The notes beneath the pieces were generated by a model. The model did not search any database and was not told the origin of the DNA. It saw nothing but the letters and a program-made list of their open reading frames with translations. Made by a program: the position numbers and the translations under genes. This document shows positions 1-56,150 of a stretch of 64,000 nt of DNA, in pieces. Each line of letters begins with the position of its first letter. The stretch's first letter is position 1. The stretch covers positions 1 to 64,000 of the forward strand of contig NZ_JAQQTF010000004.1 in the NCBI RefSeq assembly GCF_028561275.1, in the 5' to 3' direction. Source of the stretch: Aureisphaera galaxeae (GTDB lineage: Bacteria > Bacteroidota > Bacteroidia > Flavobacteriales > Flavobacteriaceae).

Positions 1-2400
1 ACCAACCTTGTGGACAACGGTGACGGTACGATCACCTATACCAATGAGGCCGGTGTGGCCCAGACGGTCGACATCGCTGCCATCGTGGTGGCCTTCGAGA
101 CCACTTCGACCATTGTGGACAACGGCGACGGAACATACACCTACACAGACGAGGACGGTAACACGACCACCATCGACATCCCAGGGAATGAAACGGTAAC
201 CAACCTTGTGGACAATGGTGATGGGACGATCACCTATACCAATGAGGCCGGTGTGGCCCAGACGGTCGACATCGCTGCCATTGTGGTGGCCTTCGAGACG
301 ACCTCTACCATAGTTGACAACGGTGACGGAACCTATACATACACAGACGAGGATGGAAACTCAACAACATTTACAGGGACCGACGATCAGGACCTGACAG
401 GGGCGACCTTAACCGGAACAATGCTAACCGTGGATATAGAGAACGGTGCTTCCGTAACTGTAGACCTTGCTGGGTTGGAAACGACATCTACCATGGTAGA
501 CAACGGAGACGGCACCTATACCTATACGGATGAGGATGGTAACAGTGTGACCTTTACGGGAACTGATGACCAAACATTGAGCCTTACGGGTACGACCCTG
601 TCCATCGAGGATGGAAACAGTGTAGACCTATCGGTGATCGGAAGTGATGACCAGAATTTGACGGGTGCTTCTGTAACAGGAACGACACTGCAAGTAGATA
701 TCGAAGACGGTACCCCTGCCATGGTGGATCTTGCCGGTGCGATCACCGACGGAGAGACGACAACCTCGATGGTACAGAACGATACGAATGGTGTGATTAC
801 CTATACCGATGAAGACGGTGGTACATCGACAGCAGACGTGACCAGTACCGATGCGGGTAACCTATTGACCACAGGAACCGATGGAGGATCATTTTTCGAT
901 CAAGTCGCTATCGCTGCCAATGAAACAACCTCTATCCTTACGGATAATGGAGATGGGACTTACACCTATACGGACGAGGATGGAAACTCCACCACATTTA
1001 CGGGTACAGACGATCAGGACCTGACAGGGGCGACCTTAACCGGAACAATGCTAACCGTGGATATAGAGAACGGTGCTTCCGTAACCGTTGACCTAGCTGG
1101 GTTGGAAACGACATCTACCATGGTAGACAATGGAGACGGTACCTATACCTATACCGATGAAGATGGAAACAGCGTCACCTTTACGGGTACGGATGACCAG
1201 AACCTGACATTGACAGGTACGACCTTGAGCATCGAAGACGGAAACAGCGTGGACCTGGCGGCATTGAGCGATTCCCTGGTGGACAACGGTGACGGGACCT
1301 TCACCCATACGGCGGTGGACGGTACGGCAGTGACCTTTGATGCCAACACCAGTACCTTGACCGACAACGGTGATGGCACCTATACGATCACCAATGACGA
1401 TGGTAGTACCATCACCTTCACAGGAACTGATGACCAAACATTGAGCCTTACAGGTACAACCCTAACCATCGAGGATGGAAATAGTGTGGATCTTTCAGCT
1501 ATCGGCGGTACCGATGATCAGAACCTGACCGGTGCTTCTGTAACGGGAACGACACTGCAAGTAGATATCGAAGATGGTACTCCTGCCATGGTGGACTTAG
1601 CTTCAGCCATTGTTGCGGGAGAAACCACCTCTAGATTGGTAGACAATTTGGACGGTACGTATACGTATACCGATGAAGACGGAACTGCAACCACTTTCGT
1701 GGGTACGGACGATCAGGACCTAACAGGGGCGACCTTAACCGGAACAATGCTAACCTTGGATATAGAGAATGGTGCTTCCGTAACCGTTGACCTTGCTGGA
1801 TTGGAGACGACCTCTACGATGGTAGACAACGGCGACGGGACCTATACCTATACCGATGAGGATGGGAACAGTGTGACCTTTACAGGTACGGACGATCAGA
1901 CTTTGAGTCTAACCGGCACGACATTGAGCATCGAGGATGGAAACAGCGTAGACCTCTCGGTAGTGCAGGACGGAACCGGAACGGATGACCAGAACTTGAG
2001 CCTTACGGGTACTATATTGAGTATCGAAGACGGAAACAGTGTAGATTTGGCCGGTGCGATCATCACAGGGGAGACCACTACAAGCATGGTGCAGAACGAT
2101 ACGAGTGGAGTGGTAACCTATACCGATGAGGACGGTGCGACTTCTACAGCAGATGTGACCAGTACCGATGCTGGCAATATCTTGACTACTGGAACCGATG
2201 GAGGTTCCTTTATAGACCAAGCTGTGGTGCAAGCGATAGAAACCGATTTGGTGGTCACCACAGATGGAACTGCTACAGGAGTGACTCTATCAGGAACCAA
2301 TGACCATACGGCAGACATCACTCTATTGAGCACGGACGCAAACAATGCTTTGAGTACGGGTGCCGACGGAGGTGTCTACTTAGATGCAACGGCTACCGTC
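1..2400 (+). repeat. Nested coding repeats in the giant repeat protein
   Basis: DNA-level repeats lie inside the coding sequence. A 198-bp unit is repeated at 1 and 199. A block starting GACGATCAGGACCTGACAGG recurs near 382 and 1009, and near 1708 with a few base changes, giving periods of 627 and 699 bp. Near-identity over roughly 70 bp suggests recent recombination between units, so copy number may vary between strains. Confidence 0.75.
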
Positions 2401-49107: not shown

Positions 49108-49162
49108 GGTACAATTAAATCCGATTCGTCCAAATACTCGTATATACTAGAAAACGCCCCAT

Positions 49163-49261
49163 ATGAATCTAGTTATACGAATTATACAATTTATAATCCT
49201 TTTGTTTTCCGATAGGATTGAAATTCCCGAAGGTTATTCAGAAAATGACACTAGCTTTTAA
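49163..49261 (+). CDS. Tiny ORF A (32 residues), LLFSDR-x-E-x-P family
   Basis: ATG 49163 to TAA 49261. The product has a hydrophobic N-terminal segment (~residues 3-15), then LLFSDRIEIP and a polar acidic tail of ten residues. It aligns without gaps from Met1 to Pro22 with tiny ORF C (55647-55739): 11 of 22 positions are identical, and the DNA 15-mer CTTTTGTTTTCCGAT is shared. It converges on the first regulator gene, 25 bp from its 3' end. No family recognised; function inferred only from context. Confidence 0.5.
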   Translation: MNLVIRIIQFIILLFSDRIEIPEGYSENDTSF

Positions 49262-49286
49262 TTTAAAGCTCACCGAGAATAGTAGG

Positions 49287-51149
49287 CTATAGTTGCCGCA
49301 AGAATTCCGATAAATTGGTATCTGTGCTTAGCCCTAGTTTTTTTCTTAGGGTAAGTCGATAGTTATAAACGGATTGTTCCTTGATCCCCATTTGGGTGGC
49401 CGCCTGTTTTGAGGTCATATTGAGGATGGTATAGATGGCTACCTGAATTTCCTTATGACTCAGGTTTGGGAACTTGCTCTTAAGGTTAAAAGTAAAGTCC
49501 TCCTGTTCGTTCTTCACCTTGATATCCAAAGCTACTTTCTCTTTATTAACTTCCGATTTATCCTTTATATAAAACAATAGTTCGTTCAATCCACTTTTCA
49601 CCGTATCCTCTTTGGCACTCCGCTTCAGGGTTTTTACCTTAGAAAGGCACACATCCAGTAGCTTATTATACTCGTTGATGTGAATGGCATACTCGGTAAT
49701 TTCCTTTTTACTGTGATCAATCTGAGCTTCTTTAAGGCTGCTTAGTTCCTTTTCGGTTTGGAAGGCTGACTTGTTCATTTTACTGATTTTGCGTTCTCGG
49801 TATACAAAAAACAGGAGCCCTGCCGCCAAACATCCAAACAAAATATTTCGATAACTGCTGGCTTTCTGTTTGGTGTCCATAATGGCTAGCCTTTGGTCCT
49901 TTACCAATAGATCTTGTTCAAATTGGGCTATGTCGAATTGCATTTTCAGGGCTTCCAATTCCCGGGTTCTATTCAATTTGGCAATACTGTCCTCCAGGCT
50001 TTCGAACTTTCTAAACGATTCCAGCGCAGCAGGGAAATTACCTTGTTCTTCATAAATCTCAGATTTTAATTTATGTGCGTCCAGCAAAATCTCCGTGATC
50101 CCATGTTCTGTAGATATGGCGATGGATTCATTAAGTATAGCTAACCCTTCTTTTAATTTTCCTTGCTTCTTTGCAATGGAAGCTCTTGCATATTTGGTGT
50201 CACTTAGCAAAGCCGGATTCGCCTTTTCCAGAATTCTTTCAGCTTTACTTAGATAGAGCTTGGCATTATCAATGTTGTTCATGCTGGCCAATATATCTGC
50301 ATATGTGCTATAGAAAATCCCAGTAAAAACGAGGTTGTCAATTTTTGGGACGAGAGCAAGGCCTTTGTCCAAATAAGCCTTTGCCATTTCATGTTCCCCG
50401 TTGCTGTCGTATTGAAGTCCTAAATTGTGATAGCAAATAAATTGTCCTACATGGCTTTCTTGTTTTTCCGCCTCTGCCAGCGCATTTTTCAAAGATTCTA
50501 TAGCCTTTTCGTCATCTCCGTTTTTTGTATGAACGAATGATAAGCCATTGTATATGTCATACAGATAGGTGTCATCTTTAAGTTGATTGGATATGTTGAA
50601 GGCATTATTATAGTAATTCATGCTCGCATCCAAATCATTCAATTGCGCAAATGCATTACCCAATGAGATGTGTGTCATAATAAGGTCCGAGGAGAATACA
50701 TGAGGTAGGGCATCTCGCAGCACTTGTATGGATTCTTTGAATTGAACCTTCATAAAATGGGCATTTCCAATGACCACCTGGGCCGACGCCTTACGGTCCG
50801 TTTTTTCATAACCCTCAAAAACACGAATGGCTTTTTGAGAATAATCTATAGCCAAATCAAAATCGGAATCCAGATAATAGCCTCTTGCCAATCCTAAAAA
50901 TGTCTCCGCAAAGAGAAGGCTATCGTTCTGCATGACGGCTAATTGTTTCAGTCGATTCGCATAGGCAAAAGTACTATCTCTGTTCTGTTCAATTCGCGCA
51001 TAATGAAGTATGAGGGTTTGAAGCGCCTCTGCTACTTCAGAACTCGACTCATTCTTTTGGATAATATCTTTGGCAAATTCGATCTTTTCCTGAGCTGTAA
51101 CGGGCGAGAAAGAGGCTACTATTAGTAGGAGTGAAAGAAATCTTCTCAT
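49287..51149 (-). CDS. Transmembrane TPR / LuxR-like HTH regulator, paralogue 1
   Basis: 620 residues. Signal peptide to ~residue 19 (SFSPVTAQ), so the TPR region (~30-370; e.g. YYLDSDFDLAIDYSQKAIRVF, LGLQYDSNGEHEMAKAYLDKG) lies in the periplasm. A coiled coil (~385-425) leads to one transmembrane helix (~435-453), a cytoplasmic helical linker, and a C-terminal HTH (~555-620: LSHKEIQVAIYTILNMTSKQ, MGIKEQSVYNYRLTLRKKLG) of the LuxR/GerE type. It is a one-component membrane sensor. A four-half-site operator lies 43 bp before the start. Ligand unknown. Confidence 0.88.
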   Translation of the reverse strand: MRRFLSLLLIVASFSPVTAQEKIEFAKDIIQKNESSSEVAEALQTLILHYARIEQNRDSTFAYANRLKQLAVMQNDSLLFAETFLGLARGYYLDSDFDLAIDYSQKAIRVFEGYEKTDRKASAQVVIGNAHFMKVQFKESIQVLRDALPHVFSSDLIMTHISLGNAFAQLNDLDASMNYYNNAFNISNQLKDDTYLYDIYNGLSFVHTKNGDDEKAIESLKNALAEAEKQESHVGQFICYHNLGLQYDSNGEHEMAKAYLDKGLALVPKIDNLVFTGIFYSTYADILASMNNIDNAKLYLSKAERILEKANPALLSDTKYARASIAKKQGKLKEGLAILNESIAISTEHGITEILLDAHKLKSEIYEEQGNFPAALESFRKFESLEDSIAKLNRTRELEALKMQFDIAQFEQDLLVKDQRLAIMDTKQKASSYRNILFGCLAAGLLFFVYRERKISKMNKSAFQTEKELSSLKEAQIDHSKKEITEYAIHINEYNKLLDVCLSKVKTLKRSAKEDTVKSGLNELLFYIKDKSEVNKEKVALDIKVKNEQEDFTFNLKSKFPNLSHKEIQVAIYTILNMTSKQAATQMGIKEQSVYNYRLTLRKKLGLSTDTNLSEFLRQL

Positions 51150-51191
51150 ATGGCATTTGGACTTGGTTGACGGGTAAACTTACACTATTTC

Positions 51192-51227
51192 CTTACTTTT
51201 TGCTTACTATAGTAAGTTTAAAGTAAG
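51192..51227. promoter_or_regulatory. 36-bp four-half-site operator, paralogue 1
   Basis: CTTAC-N6-CTTAC-TATA-GTAAG-N6-GTAAG, all four half-sites exact. Half-sites on each arm are 11 bp apart and the whole is symmetrical about 51209.5. On the minus strand it is followed, 21 bp after its inner palindrome, by TAAGTTTA, a near-consensus -7 box. Candidate site for the HTH regulators themselves. Confidence 0.65.
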
Positions 51228-51306
51228 TCATTTAACATAGCTGATATTCAATTCGTTATACATTTGCTTCAATTCAATTGTAAATCACTGTTAAACAAAA
51301 TATTAT

Positions 51307-51351
51307 ATGGTTTCTAAGTGGTGGATTTTTATCTTTTTTTCATGGAGATAA
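51307..51351 (+). CDS. Tiny ORF B (14 residues), possible shortened relative
   Basis: ATG 51307 to TAA 51351: MVSKWWIFIFFSWR. Its last nine residues match the W-[VI]-F-[LI]-[LF]-F-S-x-R part of tiny ORF C, but it stops where the E-x-P tail would begin. It lies in the same relative place as ORF C: divergent from a regulator gene, across that gene's operator. It may be a decayed or truncated copy. Confidence 0.25.
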   Translation: MVSKWWIFIFFSWR

Positions 51352-51425
51352 CCGAGTGCTCCTAGGTATTTGGGGATACTTTTTACTCGATTCGGCTATC
51401 GGAATTTCCGGCTAACGTATAAACG

Positions 51426-53288
51426 CTAGAGTTCCTTAAGAAAATTGGATAAGTTGGTGTCTTTGGAAAGCCCTAATTTCTTTCTTAGGGTTAATCTATA
51501 ATTATAAACGGATTGTTCTTTAATCCCCATTTGGTGTGCCGCCTGTTTCGAAGTCATGTTGAGTATCGTATAGATGGCCACCTGAATTTCTTTCTGGCTT
51601 AGATCTGGGAATTTGCTTTTGAGATTGAAAGTGAAATCTTCTTGTTCGTTCTTTACCTTCATATCTAAAGCGACTTTTTCTTTATTTACCTCTGTTTTGT
51701 CTTTAATGTAAAACTGAAGTTCGGTCAGTCCGCTCTTAACCGAATCTTCTTTGGTGCTACGTTTCAGGAATCGTATTTTCGAAAGACAAGTATCCAGTAA
51801 TTTATTGTATTCGTTGATATGAATGGCATATTCCGTAATCTCCTTTTTACTATGGTCTATCTGTGCTTCCTTTAAACGACTGAGTTCTTTTTCCGTTTCG
51901 AAAGCAGCTTTGTTCATTTTATTGATCTTACGTTGTCTATATACGAAGAGTAGCATTCCGAAAGCCAAGAAACCGAACAGTACATTTCTGTAATTACTGG
52001 CTTTCTGTTTAGAATCTAAAATGGCGAGCTTCTGGTCTTTCACTAGTAGATCCTGTTCATACTGGGCAATATCGAACTGCATCTTTAATCCTTCAATGTC
52101 TCTTGTTTTGTTCAATTTAGAGATGCTATCCTTGAATCTTTCGTATTCCTTGAAATAGGCTAGGGAAGCGGAATAGTTCCCTAAGGATTCGTGAATTTGG
52201 GATATCTCCATATAGCTGTGCGTTAATACTTCAGAAATACCATTCTCTTCGGCAATTTCGATAGCTTTATGAAATCTATCGAGCCCTTCCTTTGGTCTTT
52301 CCAGTTTTCGGGCGATGCGTCCTCTCAGGGCTTCCGAATAACAAAGTTTGGCTGGGGATGAATGTTCAAAGATGGTTTCACACATTTCTACATAATACTG
52401 GGCTTCTTCTATCTTGTCCATGTCCACAAGCATGTCTGCGTAAGATCTGTAAAGGGAGCCCTTCATATAGGGACTGTCTATCTTAGAGAAAAGGTCAATG
52501 GTTTTGTCATAACAAGATTTAGCCTTACCGTAATCGCCCTTTCGGTAATGTAGAAGCCCCATATTGTGTAATGACATGGCTTGCCCCATAAAGTATTCTT
52601 GCTTTTCAGCAATAAGCAAAGCATTTTTTAAGGATGCCTTTGCGGCTTCATTATCTCCCGTACGTGTTTGTATTACCGACTGACCACTGTATATTTCATA
52701 GAGATAGGTGTCGTTTTGTAACTCATTCGAGATTTTATAAGCTTCGTTAAAATAAAATATGGCAGATTCAAAATCATTGGTCTGTGTACTTACCAAACCT
52801 AGCGAAACGTTTACTAGAATGCGATCGATCGAAACAGTATGGGGAGCAGCACTTGTTAGAACACTAAGCGCCTCGTAATCATTATAAAGAAGGAAGTGGG
52901 CGTTTCCAAGAACGATTTGAGTAGCTGCCTTTCGCTCTTTTACAGCATACCGATCGAAAATACCTATAGCACGCCCGCTATAATCAATGACGGAATCCAG
53001 ATTAGATTGGATGTAGTGATAACGACTATATCCAAGATAGGCTTCGGCAAATAGTAAGCTGTCTTTTTGGGAACGAGCAATGTCTTCCAGCCGTTTTGAA
53101 TAAATGAACGTACTATCGGCATTAGGTGATACCCGACCGTAATACGTTATAATTTCTTTCAGGGCGTTGACAACTTCATTAGATTGGCTGTTCTTTTCTA
53201 GTGTTCTCTTGGCTGAACTAATGTCATCTTGGGCTATCGTGAATGTATGTACTAGAACAAAGAGGGTGAGGAGGAGGGATCGAGTCAT
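51426..53288 (-). CDS. Transmembrane TPR / LuxR-like HTH regulator, paralogue 2
   Basis: 620 residues with the same architecture as its neighbour: signal peptide (VHTFTIAQ), periplasmic TPRs (~30-370; e.g. MGLLHYRKGDYGKAKSCYDKT), transmembrane helix (~435-453, NVLFGFLAFGMLLFVY) and HTH (LSQKEIQVAIYTILNMTSKQ, MGIKEQSVYNYRLTLRKKLG). The C-terminal half is nearly identical to paralogue 1, while the TPR part has diverged much more, as expected if the sensors see different ligands but bind the same DNA. Operator 45 bp upstream. Confidence 0.88.
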   Translation of the reverse strand: MTRSLLLTLFVLVHTFTIAQDDISSAKRTLEKNSQSNEVVNALKEIITYYGRVSPNADSTFIYSKRLEDIARSQKDSLLFAEAYLGYSRYHYIQSNLDSVIDYSGRAIGIFDRYAVKERKAATQIVLGNAHFLLYNDYEALSVLTSAAPHTVSIDRILVNVSLGLVSTQTNDFESAIFYFNEAYKISNELQNDTYLYEIYSGQSVIQTRTGDNEAAKASLKNALLIAEKQEYFMGQAMSLHNMGLLHYRKGDYGKAKSCYDKTIDLFSKIDSPYMKGSLYRSYADMLVDMDKIEEAQYYVEMCETIFEHSSPAKLCYSEALRGRIARKLERPKEGLDRFHKAIEIAEENGISEVLTHSYMEISQIHESLGNYSASLAYFKEYERFKDSISKLNKTRDIEGLKMQFDIAQYEQDLLVKDQKLAILDSKQKASNYRNVLFGFLAFGMLLFVYRQRKINKMNKAAFETEKELSRLKEAQIDHSKKEITEYAIHINEYNKLLDTCLSKIRFLKRSTKEDSVKSGLTELQFYIKDKTEVNKEKVALDMKVKNEQEDFTFNLKSKFPDLSQKEIQVAIYTILNMTSKQAAHQMGIKEQSVYNYRLTLRKKLGLSKDTNLSNFLKEL

Positions 53289-53332
53289 TTTGTCGAGGCA
53301 TTTTGAGAGGTTAGGCGGGCTGTTTTTCTTTA

Positions 53333-53368
53333 CTTACTTTTATATTACTTAAGTAGGCAAATCGTAAC
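53333..53368. promoter_or_regulatory. 36-bp four-half-site operator, paralogue 2
   Basis: CTTAC-N6-ATTAC-TTAA-GTAGG-N6-GTAAC: the same positions and spacing as the other two operators, with one mismatch in each of three half-sites. Three more half-site-like words (GTAAG 53391, GTAAT 53402, GTAGG 53412), about one helical turn apart, lie just beyond it. Confidence 0.55.
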
Positions 53369-53537
53369 TTCCTATTATTGTGGGAATTTAGTAAGTCTTG
53401 AGTAATCTTGCGTAGGCAATTTCTTGATTAGTAGCGGTGGTTGTGTAAAGTGCGCATTTCACGTGATTTCCTGAAATTTGGCTAGTATAAAAAACTGCAA
53501 GGTTTACCTAAAAATTTCGGCAACATCCCTTTGAAGA

Positions 53538-55415
53538 TTATATTTTTTTCAGGAATTCGGCCAAATTCGTATCGCTCGATATTCCTAATTTTTTACGTAG
53601 GGATAACCTGTAGTTGTAGACAGATTGTTCCTTGATTCCCATCTGGTTAGCCGCTTGCTTTGATGTCATGTTCAATAAGGCATAAATCGCTACCTGGATT
53701 TCCTTTTTGCTTAGGTCGGGATACTTACTTTTAAGTTTAAAGGTGAAATCTTCTTGTTCGCTTTTCACCTTCATATCTAGGGTTACTTTTTCCTTATTAA
53801 TATCCATATTGTCCTTAATAAAGAATTGGAGGTCGGTCAGGCCTTTCTTGACGGTATCCTCCTTTGCCCGGCGCTTCAATGTTTTTATTTGAGACAGGCA
53901 GGCATCAAGGAGCTTGTTGTATTCGAATATGTGTATGGCATATTCGGTAATCTCTCGTTTACTGTAATCGATCCGGGCTTCCTTTAAGCGGCTAAGTTCT
54001 TTTTCCGTGGCAATGGCCGATTTGTTCATTTTATTGATTTTTCGTTCCCGATAAAAGAAAATAGACAGCCCAATAGCAATACACACAAATAGTATGTTTC
54101 TGTACTTGCTGGCCTTTTGCTTGGAGTCTAAAATGGCCAACTCCTGGTCCTTTACCAATAAATCCTGTTCATAGTGGGCAATTTCGAATTGTGTTTTTAA
54201 GGCTTCGATTTCCCGACCCTTATTTTGGTTGAAAAGACTGTCCTTAACAGCCTTGTAATTTTTCAAGGCTTCCAGGGATTCCGAAACATATCCTTGGTAT
54301 TCGAGCCATTCCGAAAGTGTTATATAACATTCGCTCAAGGTCATTAGTGCTCCTTGTTTTTTAGTCATCTCTATGGATTCTTGGAGGAGCGCTATGGCTT
54401 CATCGAATTTACCAACGCTATATGTAATATGAGCGCGGATGGTAATAATGGCCCATAAGCGATTGGGATTTATCTTTTTGTAAATCGCTTCTGCTAGATC
54501 TAGGTATCTAGTGGCTTCCCTTATATCACCTAATTCCAAATGGGTTTGGGCGTATTGCCTATATGTAGAGCCTATAACGTATTGGTCGCTTATTTTTGGG
54601 AACAGTGCGATTGTTTTTTCAAAAATGGGTTTAGCCTCTTCGAATTTGTTATTGGCATTAAGTGCAATGCCCAGGTTATGATAGCCTACGACCTGTTTTG
54701 AAGGGCTGTTTTGTTTCTCAGCAATTTCAATGGCATTTTCCAGAGAATTGATTACTTGTTCATAATCTTCTTTATGATCAAGTGATCCGGCAATGCCATT
54801 GTATATATCGAACAAGAACGTGTCATCCGCAAGATCATGGGTAAGATCGAATGCCGTTTTAAAATGGCGTAGACTGGATTCCTTGTCAATCAGTAAGCTA
54901 TAACTTCTTGCAAGACCCAAATGAACCAAAATACGATCCGAACCCACGGCATTCATTTTTGCTTTTTTGTAGTACAACATCGCTTCCTTATTCTCAAAAA
55001 GAGAAAGATGGGTTCTCCCTAATACAATTTGTGCGGAAGCTACTTTATGATCTACTTCGTGCTTCTCGAAAATGCTGAGGGCTTTTTTCGCATTGCTCAG
55101 GGCATCATTATAACTAGCTTCTAGGGAATGGGCCGCACCATATCCCAAATATGCTTCTGCGAATAATAGACTGTCGTTTTGCAATTGAGCAGCTTGCTCC
55201 AGAACTTTAGCATATTTAAAAATGCTGTCACTGTTTCGTTCTCTATAGGTATAAAGGTATATAAGGTTTTTTAACGCATTTGTAGATTCCAATTGCAACG
55301 GATTCCCATTTGCAACCTCTTTAACGTGCTGCAAATTGTTTTGTGCCATACCATGGACGCAAAGAAGACTTAAGGAAAAGAGTATTAGGTTTCTGGTTAT
55401 CCCAAACATAAGCAT
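53538..55415 (-). CDS. Transmembrane TPR / LuxR-like HTH regulator, paralogue 3
   Basis: 625 residues (ATG 55409, residue 3, is an equally good start). Signal peptide to VHGMAQ, periplasmic TPRs (~30-380; e.g. NLGIALNANNKFEEAKPIFEKT), one transmembrane helix (~440-457, NILFVCIAIGLSIFFY), coiled linker, and HTH (LSKKEIQVAIYALLNMTSKQ, MGIKEQSVYNYRLSLRKKLG). It is the most diverged of the three in the TPR part. Operator 30-36 bp upstream; tiny ORF C lies divergently beyond it. Confidence 0.88.
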   Translation of the reverse strand: MLMFGITRNLILFSLSLLCVHGMAQNNLQHVKEVANGNPLQLESTNALKNLIYLYTYRERNSDSIFKYAKVLEQAAQLQNDSLLFAEAYLGYGAAHSLEASYNDALSNAKKALSIFEKHEVDHKVASAQIVLGRTHLSLFENKEAMLYYKKAKMNAVGSDRILVHLGLARSYSLLIDKESSLRHFKTAFDLTHDLADDTFLFDIYNGIAGSLDHKEDYEQVINSLENAIEIAEKQNSPSKQVVGYHNLGIALNANNKFEEAKPIFEKTIALFPKISDQYVIGSTYRQYAQTHLELGDIREATRYLDLAEAIYKKINPNRLWAIITIRAHITYSVGKFDEAIALLQESIEMTKKQGALMTLSECYITLSEWLEYQGYVSESLEALKNYKAVKDSLFNQNKGREIEALKTQFEIAHYEQDLLVKDQELAILDSKQKASKYRNILFVCIAIGLSIFFYRERKINKMNKSAIATEKELSRLKEARIDYSKREITEYAIHIFEYNKLLDACLSQIKTLKRRAKEDTVKKGLTDLQFFIKDNMDINKEKVTLDMKVKSEQEDFTFKLKSKYPDLSKKEIQVAIYALLNMTSKQAANQMGIKEQSVYNYRLSLRKKLGISSDTNLAEFLKKI

Positions 55416-55445
55416 TTGGCGCTTTACGTAAACATACGATATTTG

Positions 55446-55481
55446 CTTACTCGAATCTTACTAGAGTAAATTATTAGTAAG
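55446..55481. promoter_or_regulatory. 36-bp four-half-site operator, paralogue 3
   Basis: CTTAC-N6-CTTAC-TAGA-GTAAA-N6-GTAAG, one mismatch. On the minus strand it is followed, 21 bp after the inner palindrome, by TATGTTTA, the same offset as the near -7 box of paralogue 1. It sits in the divergent region shared with tiny ORF C. Confidence 0.65.
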
Positions 55482-55646
55482 TACATATTTCTTTTAATAA
55501 GCAATTTACCATCATCTTAGCAATCCCAAATAGATAAATACTTGTGTAACACGAGTCACTGTATGAAATGCACTCAGTAGATGATTAGGGTGCCTGATTA
55601 AAAGAAAAGAAGGGTGACCAGTACTAACTCAATTGGAATAATCTCC

Positions 55647-55739
55647 ATGATCATGTTTACAAGATTTATTAAATGGGTGTTTCTTTTGTTTTCCGATCGC
55701 TTGGAAATGCCAAAAGAACGTAGAGACTCAGAATTTTAA
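55647..55739 (+). CDS. Tiny ORF C (30 residues), LLFSDR-x-E-x-P family
   Basis: ATG 55647 to TAA 55739. Hydrophobic segment FIKWVFLLF (7-15) followed by SDRLEMPKERRDSEF, a charged tail. It matches tiny ORF A in length, layout and 11 of the first 22 residues. A second in-frame ATG is at 55653. A rho-independent terminator 73 bp after the stop supports plus-strand transcription. It could be a small membrane protein or a secreted signal precursor; both are inference. Confidence 0.55.
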   Translation: MIMFTRFIKWVFLLFSDRLEMPKERRDSEF

Positions 55740-55811
55740 AAAAATACTCGACCTATGCTTAATCGCGGTTGAGTTTTGCGCTAATACACATGGCTATTAG
55801 TGATTTGGTGG

Positions 55812-55842
55812 AAACCCCGATGAGAATCGGGGTTTTGTTTTT
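55812..55842 (+). terminator. Rho-independent terminator
   Basis: Stem AAACCCCGAT / ATCGGGGTTT with GAGA loop, followed by a T-rich run. It ends the plus-strand transcript that would carry tiny ORF C. Confidence 0.8.
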
Positions 55843-55973
55843 TAATGGTTATGCTAAGACAGTATATTAACTCACTTTTTTACATCAATTTTACGATTTT
55901 ATAAAAAAAATGATGTTAATATTTCCAAATTGTTAATTTTTTTGGGATTTTAGCCCGCGAAAATGCAATTCTT

Positions 55974-56150
55974 GTGAATTCAGAAGTTGTTTATTTCATA
56001 ATTGCCATTGTAGTTTCCCTCGTGTTTATACACGCTGTCCATACACTTGGGAAGATAAGACGTGCGAGGGCGTCGGGTAAAAGATGGAACAGGAAGAATC
56101 CGTATCATGCTTTATTGATTCGGCTTTTTGGAAGGAATCTACCTGACTAA
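55974..56150 (+). CDS. Small single-pass membrane protein, 58 residues
   Basis: GTG 55974 to TAA 56150. One transmembrane helix (VVYFIIAIVVSLVFIHAV, ~5-22) followed by a strongly basic tail (KIRRARASGKRWNRKNPYH) and LLIRLFGRNLPD. Composition and the positive-inside pattern look like a real small membrane protein. No family recognised. It converges on the beta-lactamase-like gene 4 bp away. Confidence 0.5.
   Translation: MNSEVVYFIIAIVVSLVFIHAVHTLGKIRRARASGKRWNRKNPYHALLIRLFGRNLPD

Follow-up and report, generated by a model that had tools for sequence, protein, structure and literature searches.

Gene arrangement at the locus

The window, meaning the whole 64,000-nucleotide stretch of Aureisphaera galaxeae DNA that was analysed, is part of contig C14; the genome comprises 4.59 Mb in 19 contigs. 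The genes are arranged in the order of a gene that we take to be mnmA-like (plus strand), an NMO/FabK-like gene (plus), the tiny ORF A (plus), regulators 1-3 (minus), and the tiny ORF B (plus). Downstream of ORF B lie a 58-codon ORF (plus) and then a beta-lactamase2-family gene (minus). The 58-codon ORF (55974-56150) has a hydrophobic start and is a second likely real small gene. It is retained at the same site in the congeners G004-G008 (56-58 codons), and a counterpart is present in two genomes of another genus.

ORF A (49163-49261, plus strand, 32 aa, MNLVIRIIQFIILLFSDRIEIPEGYSENDTSF) lies on the same strand as the NMO/FabK-like gene, starts 55 nt past it, and is convergent with regulator 1. 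ORF B (55647-55739, plus strand, 30 aa, MIMFTRFIKWVFLLFSDRLEMPKERRDSEF) is divergent from regulator 3, with the start codons 231 bp apart; the arrangements of the two ORFs thus differ. Both were found where the original prediction had placed them, and its gap-free alignment to residue 22 was reproduced with 11 identities (M1, R6, I8, L13, L14, F15, S16, D17, R18, E20, and P22), together with the common 15-base run CTTTTGTTTTCCGAT. The resemblance between A and B is real and beyond chance. The hydrophobic segment and polar tail ascribed to both products are also present; however, the hydrophobic part covers merely about 9-13 residues by eye, and a complete membrane span is therefore doubtful. 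No secretion signal or cleavage motif is apparent by eye in the tiny proteins. The predicted structure of the ORF B product shows a helix at residues 3-19 with a mean pLDDT of 71.6.

The three regulators in tandem on the minus strand were confirmed as TPR-HTH proteins, as TPR_12 and a C-terminal GerE domain each score over the Pfam cut-off in all three. Regulator 1 (49287-51149, 620 aa) and regulator 3 (53538-55415, 625 aa) are composed of TPRs, a membrane segment, and the GerE HTH; regulator 2 (51426-53288, 620 aa) is composed of TPRs and the GerE HTH. Hydropathy was the sole basis for judging signal peptides and membrane segments. By this measure, the N-terminal segment exceeds the cut-off in two regulators (2 and 3) and stays below it in regulator 1. 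An internal segment near residue 435, followed by positive residues, is over the cut-off in regulators 1 and 3 and below it in regulator 2. The structure of regulator 3 as modelled by AlphaFold (mean pLDDT 71.4; residues 401-551 below 50) comprises a TPR superhelix, one long helix, and a helical domain at the C-terminus. The best matches of this model among solved structures are O-GlcNAc transferase and LGN, followed by RapF, RapI, and NprR; such matches of a model reveal the fold, not the function. The best NCBIfam relative is the sensor kinase FimS, which is matched over the TPR-to-membrane part at a score far below the cut-off.

A family of tiny genes within the genus

When ORF B was used as the query against the whole genome, two further copies came up: ORF A (E 0.0105) and one on contig C11 (E 0.076). 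A weak match on contig C12 (E 0.198), which reads MERIKNFVKTVLLLFSDHLDPDP followed by a stop, came from a profile search of 199 genomes. The copy in congener G007 is MRFIEFILLLFSDKLEIPKESQ. A five-row family profile was built from the A, B, C11, C12, and G007 copies; it scores its own rows at 2e-9 to 9e-16, and it found a new copy outside its rows, on contig C28 of congener G005, at 8e-7. In total, six intact copies were found in the nine genomes of the genus (the host genome and eight congeners): four in the host, one in G005, and one in G007. In the remaining six congeners, no match was better than E 0.14; these matches were inspected in part, as were the weak matches of the five-row profile in these congeners and the host genome (E 0.05-1.9). 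Two matches on host contig C16 were rejected as chance, one (C16:163998) within another gene and one (C16:445777) within a coding ORF.

The family proteins have 22-38 residues, or 44 with the longer C12 start. All are laid out as a short hydrophobic, partly amphipathic stretch, an invariant LLFSD at its end, and a polar tail. The best 15-residue mean hydropathy is 0.80-2.27, and charges interrupt the short hydrophobic stretch. Downstream of the NMO gene, at 49108-49162 of the window and at 2443-2522 of locus L104, the sequences resemble each other (AATTAAATCC ... ACTCGTANNTA). This likeness upstream of ORF A and the G007 ORF, seen by eye, suggests orthology between the two; the distance from the NMO gene to the tiny ORF in G007 is 80 nt.

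Profile searches of two genome sets from the family, one of 199 and one of 397 genomes, yielded no convincing match beyond the genus (best E 0.0033 and 0.0056); the host and at least two of its congeners are part of both sets. At a threshold of E <=0.1, the 397-genome search had matches in 45 genomes, 44 of them other than the host. Twenty-nine of the matched loci were read by script, and L151 and L014 were dropped because they are cut by contig ends. The exact nine bases of GTGATTTGG, the core of the RNA element described below, occur within 200 nt downstream at none of the other 27 loci; L150 and L162 carry them with one mismatch. The best-looking peptides among these matches, L143 and L150, were judged chance by their context; the three G022 matches read from the 30 loci of the 199-genome search were also taken to be chance. 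A literature survey, conducted largely without subscription papers, found no account of an LLFSD family.

Selection on the LLFSD motif

Codon differences were counted pairwise among four independent loci (B, C11, C12, and G005 C28). Within LLFSD, 25 differences are synonymous and none is non-synonymous, and the differences at codon positions 1, 2, and 3 number 7, 0, and 24. Over the extended LLFSDxLE, the counts are 30 synonymous and 8 non-synonymous, and over the seven codons preceding LLFSD they are 5 and 29. The LLFSD counts argue that the peptide is under selection, and they bear out the purifying selection that had been named as a check of the original prediction. Judged from these codons, the protein-level selection is focused on LLFSD, which indicates a specific contact beyond mere greasiness. 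In a column permutation, 0 of 5000 trials reached the observed value; this test is biased towards coding, because the copies were found via protein similarity.

A conserved RNA element downstream of the tiny genes

The 3' RNA element of ORF B (55781-55843, plus strand) consists of a hairpin region, GTGATTTGG at 55800-55808, a terminator hairpin, and a T run. The same layout, with a terminator-like hairpin, is found behind four of the six copies, with GTGATTTGG lying 60 (B), 73 (C11), 59 (C12), and 49 nt (G005 C28) past the stop. No 3' element was seen behind ORF A or the G007 copy. The protein profile by itself had led to the G005 C28 copy, and the element of this copy was seen afterwards, which provides independent confirmation. 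The nine bases are identical at five places, including contig C50 of G005, where the element lies beside a regulator without the ORF; there the element-to-start distance is 219 bp against 385 bp at B, 166 bp less.

The pattern GTGATTTGG-N1-9-CC-N8-26-GGTYYY was derived from five known elements, so the recovery of those is by construction and the rarity of others is what is tested. Three matches occur in the host genome, every one behind a tiny ORF, while the reversed pattern gave none in the host and two across the nine genomes. The ten matches in the nine genomes are the three in the host, G005 C28, G005 C50, and five others (G005 C96, three in G007, and one in G008), none of which has an LLFSD frame upstream or a terminator hairpin that could be seen.

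Shuffle tests covered the element and the terminator together. Folding is better than that of shuffles in four of the five (z -3.5 to -4.7); the exception is C12 (z -0.16). A UUUGG stretch is unpaired in the lowest-energy fold of four of the five elements and is paired in B. A CCAAAT able to pair with UUUGG was noted by eye before regulators 1 and 3 and is absent before regulator 2. Searches of the window, L007, L041, and L084 gave no Rfam match at the gathering score, and no Hok-like fold-back pattern was found in the foldings examined. A second tiny ORF (M..SDLV) at the element was rejected because the nine bases never vary, whereas the LLFSD codons do.

Taken together, the firm result from these sequence comparisons is a new genus-restricted family with peptide-level selection and a common RNA element in four of six copies. 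ORFs of 22-44 codons, below ordinary gene finding, are thereby shown by evolution alone to be real genes in a genus of Flavobacteriaceae.

Association with TPR-HTH regulators

All three loci that carry the family in the host genome adjoin a TPR-HTH regulator gene. The predicted pairing of tiny ORF and regulator was therefore found again at two loci beyond the window. The element-bearing host copies (B, C11, and C12) are all divergent to such a gene, the C11 and C12 copies lying 386 and 253 bp from TPR + GerE genes. The C11 regulator has a GerE match of 21.7, slightly below the Pfam cut-off of 23.5, and shares only about 22% identity with regulator 3. We estimate that, with about 11 such genes in the genome, a random position would lie no more than 600 bp upstream of one with a probability of about 0.0014; the two extra loci are thus unlikely to be accidental. 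A motif scan of eight other host regions with related TPR/HTH genes gave no intergenic tiny-ORF match. No remnants of tiny ORFs were found between regulators 1 and 2 or 2 and 3, where alignment scores are no better than those of shuffles.

The congeners present other arrangements. In G007, the tiny ORF lies between the NMO gene and the 58-codon ORF with no regulator at the site; the sole match to the C12 regulator at 1e-20 in that genome is 28% identical and lies on a different contig. At the corresponding site of G005 (C50), one regulator and the element are present and the tiny ORF is missing. The G005 C28 ORF (L139 7003-7119) is 365 bp away from, and divergent to, an AraC-type (HTH_18) gene (L139 5465-6637), and the sensor and response-regulator genes in its neighbourhood match those near the host C11 copy. 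No LLFSD ORF was found beside five homologous regulators in four other genomes (one each in G005, G172, and G170, and two in G280); the search that covered G172, G170, and G280 scored up to three candidates per genome. The expectation that the motif would recur near homologous regulators therefore failed there, and the pairing of tiny ORF and regulator is not obligate across species.

Operator-like sites and likely divergent targets

Operator-like sites with the pattern TTACT-N6-TTACT-NN-AGTAA-N6-AGTAA lie before regulator 1 (51193-51226, 0 mismatches), before regulator 2 (53334-53367, 2 mismatches), and in the gap between regulator 3 and ORF B (55447-55480, 0 mismatches), the last being 166 bp before ORF B. 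At <=3 mismatches, the host genome has only these three sites, G005 has two, and G002 has one with three mismatches; the reversed control gave one site each in G007 and G008. Since the pattern was derived from known sites, the recovery of those is by construction. The core TACTNNAGTA is found 43-57 bp before the starts of regulators 1-3, the C12 regulator, and the G005 regulator. Similarly, TACTATAGTA is found about 50 bp before the regulators of G172 and G170 and one of the two in G280 (the latter genome read by eye). No operator was found at C11. The four-half-site pattern is very probably an autoregulatory operator.

In G172, G170, and G280, the gene divergent to the regulator codes for a secreted protein whose start is of the QVGI type (L121 4991-7318, L122 9461-11974, and L123 11528-12790, respectively). 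No Pfam family scored over the cut-off in the three QVGI-type proteins scanned. The position of these genes in the relatives suggests that the divergent gene is a likely target. The second operator of G005 (L120 7606-7639, contig C73) lies 81 bp before a lone gene for a secreted QVGINTTDP protein, which suggests a regulon. By this comparison, the tiny gene at B and C12 likely occupies the place of a target beside the regulator.

Proposed role and alternative explanations

From this geometry, we tentatively propose, at a probability of about 0.4, that the tiny peptide-plus-RNA gene serves the adjacent regulator as an output or feedback partner. The gene would be the output or feedback arm of the membrane regulator and would be run from the common intergenic region. 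The peptide may reside at the inner face of the membrane, where LLFSD would touch a specific partner; the obvious candidate is the membrane or cytoplasmic part of the regulator. The open UUUGG between both hairpins may pair with target RNAs. Several observations count against this reading: with 166 bp between the operator and ORF B, the site might act on regulator 3 alone; the G007 ORF lacks a regulator, G005 has a regulator with the element and without the ORF, and its intact copy adjoins an AraC-type gene; five regulators and eight host regions lack the ORF, and no operator was found at C11; and the A and G007 copies lack the element. A more specific version, in which the gene would represent a new class of cis-partner, the LLFSD peptide binds the regulator within the membrane or from the cytoplasmic side, the 3' RNA acts on targets in trans, and both are expressed from the divergent promoter region of the regulator, is rather unlikely.

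The main rival, possible if doubtful, is that the family is type I toxin-like, consisting of tiny membrane-active peptides kept silent through mRNA structure and an antisense RNA, with the nearness to regulators incidental or a matter of variable loci. In PMC8309996, membrane type I toxins are described as proteins of <60 aa that are hydrophobic, with a putative helical transmembrane domain, that are toxic, and that have an antisense RNA as antitoxin; the lack of sequence conservation is stressed. The family, at 22-44 aa, lies within this size limit, and its hydrophobic segment (modelled as helical for B), multiple copies, patchy presence in the genus, and structured 3' end fit as well. However, LLFSD is invariant, the hydrophobic stretch is short and charge-interrupted, no antisense RNA is known for the family, and all three host loci adjoin TPR-HTH genes. 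The toxin explanation thus accounts for size, copy number, and patchiness, but not for the strict LLFSD or the neighbours. A quite improbable alternative takes the conserved unit to be chiefly a small RNA, with the ORF as a minor passenger. The unchanged GTGATTTGG at five places, one of them without an ORF, and the differing element-to-start distances there and at B agree with an independent RNA unit. Against it stand the strong protein-level selection, the persistence of ORF A and the G007 copy without the element, and the C12 element, whose fold is no better than shuffles.

The original prediction had suggested that the tiny proteins, or peptides derived from them, may be membrane regulators of the receptors or their ligands, with the TPRs placed in the periplasm. 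The adjacency in the host genome and the resemblance of the modelled TPR superhelix of regulator 3 to the Rap and NprR receptors, among other TPR folds, are consistent with the ligand view, but the best structural matches of the model are general TPR proteins. The ligand view is not supported: the tiny proteins have no secretion signal apparent by eye, the congeners have orphan ORFs and regulators without an ORF, and the 3' RNA element of four of six copies is left unexplained. According to PMC10075063, RRNPP systems comprise a small, SEC-secreted propeptide and an intracellular receptor of about 250-500 aa with TPRs, encoded by direct neighbours. Here, the small proteins of 30 and 32 aa and the TPR families in all three regulators agree with that description; the regulators of 620, 620, and 625 aa exceed the receptor length, and adjacency holds at three host loci and not in G007 or at G005 C28. 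As to the location of the receptor, hydropathy suggests membrane segments at the N-terminus and internally, though not over the cut-off in every regulator. Because the receptor length does not fit and the adjacency is not kept in congeners, an exported ligand is the least supported explanation and a very improbable one.

Whichever role applies, the locus is a compact test case that combines a membrane regulator, a readable operator, a likely target family in relatives, and a tiny divergent gene with a peptide motif and an RNA element. Should the peptide or the RNA act on the regulator, it would be a new type of partner for membrane-anchored transcription factors.

Comparison with known systems

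The LLFSD family shares with the TisB, Ibs, Ldr, and Fst toxins a tiny size, a predicted hydrophobic helix, multiple copies, and a structured mRNA, and differs from them in the invariant LLFSD and in the charges within its short hydrophobic stretch. As in the RRNPP systems (Rap, NprR, and PlcR), a small gene adjoins a TPR regulator whose model, for regulator 3, resembles the TPR domains of NprR and Rap among other TPR folds. Unlike those systems, the regulators have 620-625 aa, are predicted to be membrane-bound, and carry the HTH at the C-terminus, while the tiny protein has no apparent secretion signal and the pairing is not kept in congeners. Some small RNAs are dual-function and also encode a peptide. 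The LLFSD unit is similarly short, with an ORF, a conserved stretch, and a terminator, but its RNA target is putative and it has no Rfam match. Regulators 1-3 resemble TPR + LuxR/GerE one-component regulators in their TPR region and C-terminal GerE HTH. Compared with FimS, they have an HTH output in place of the kinase, and tiny divergent genes are found alongside.
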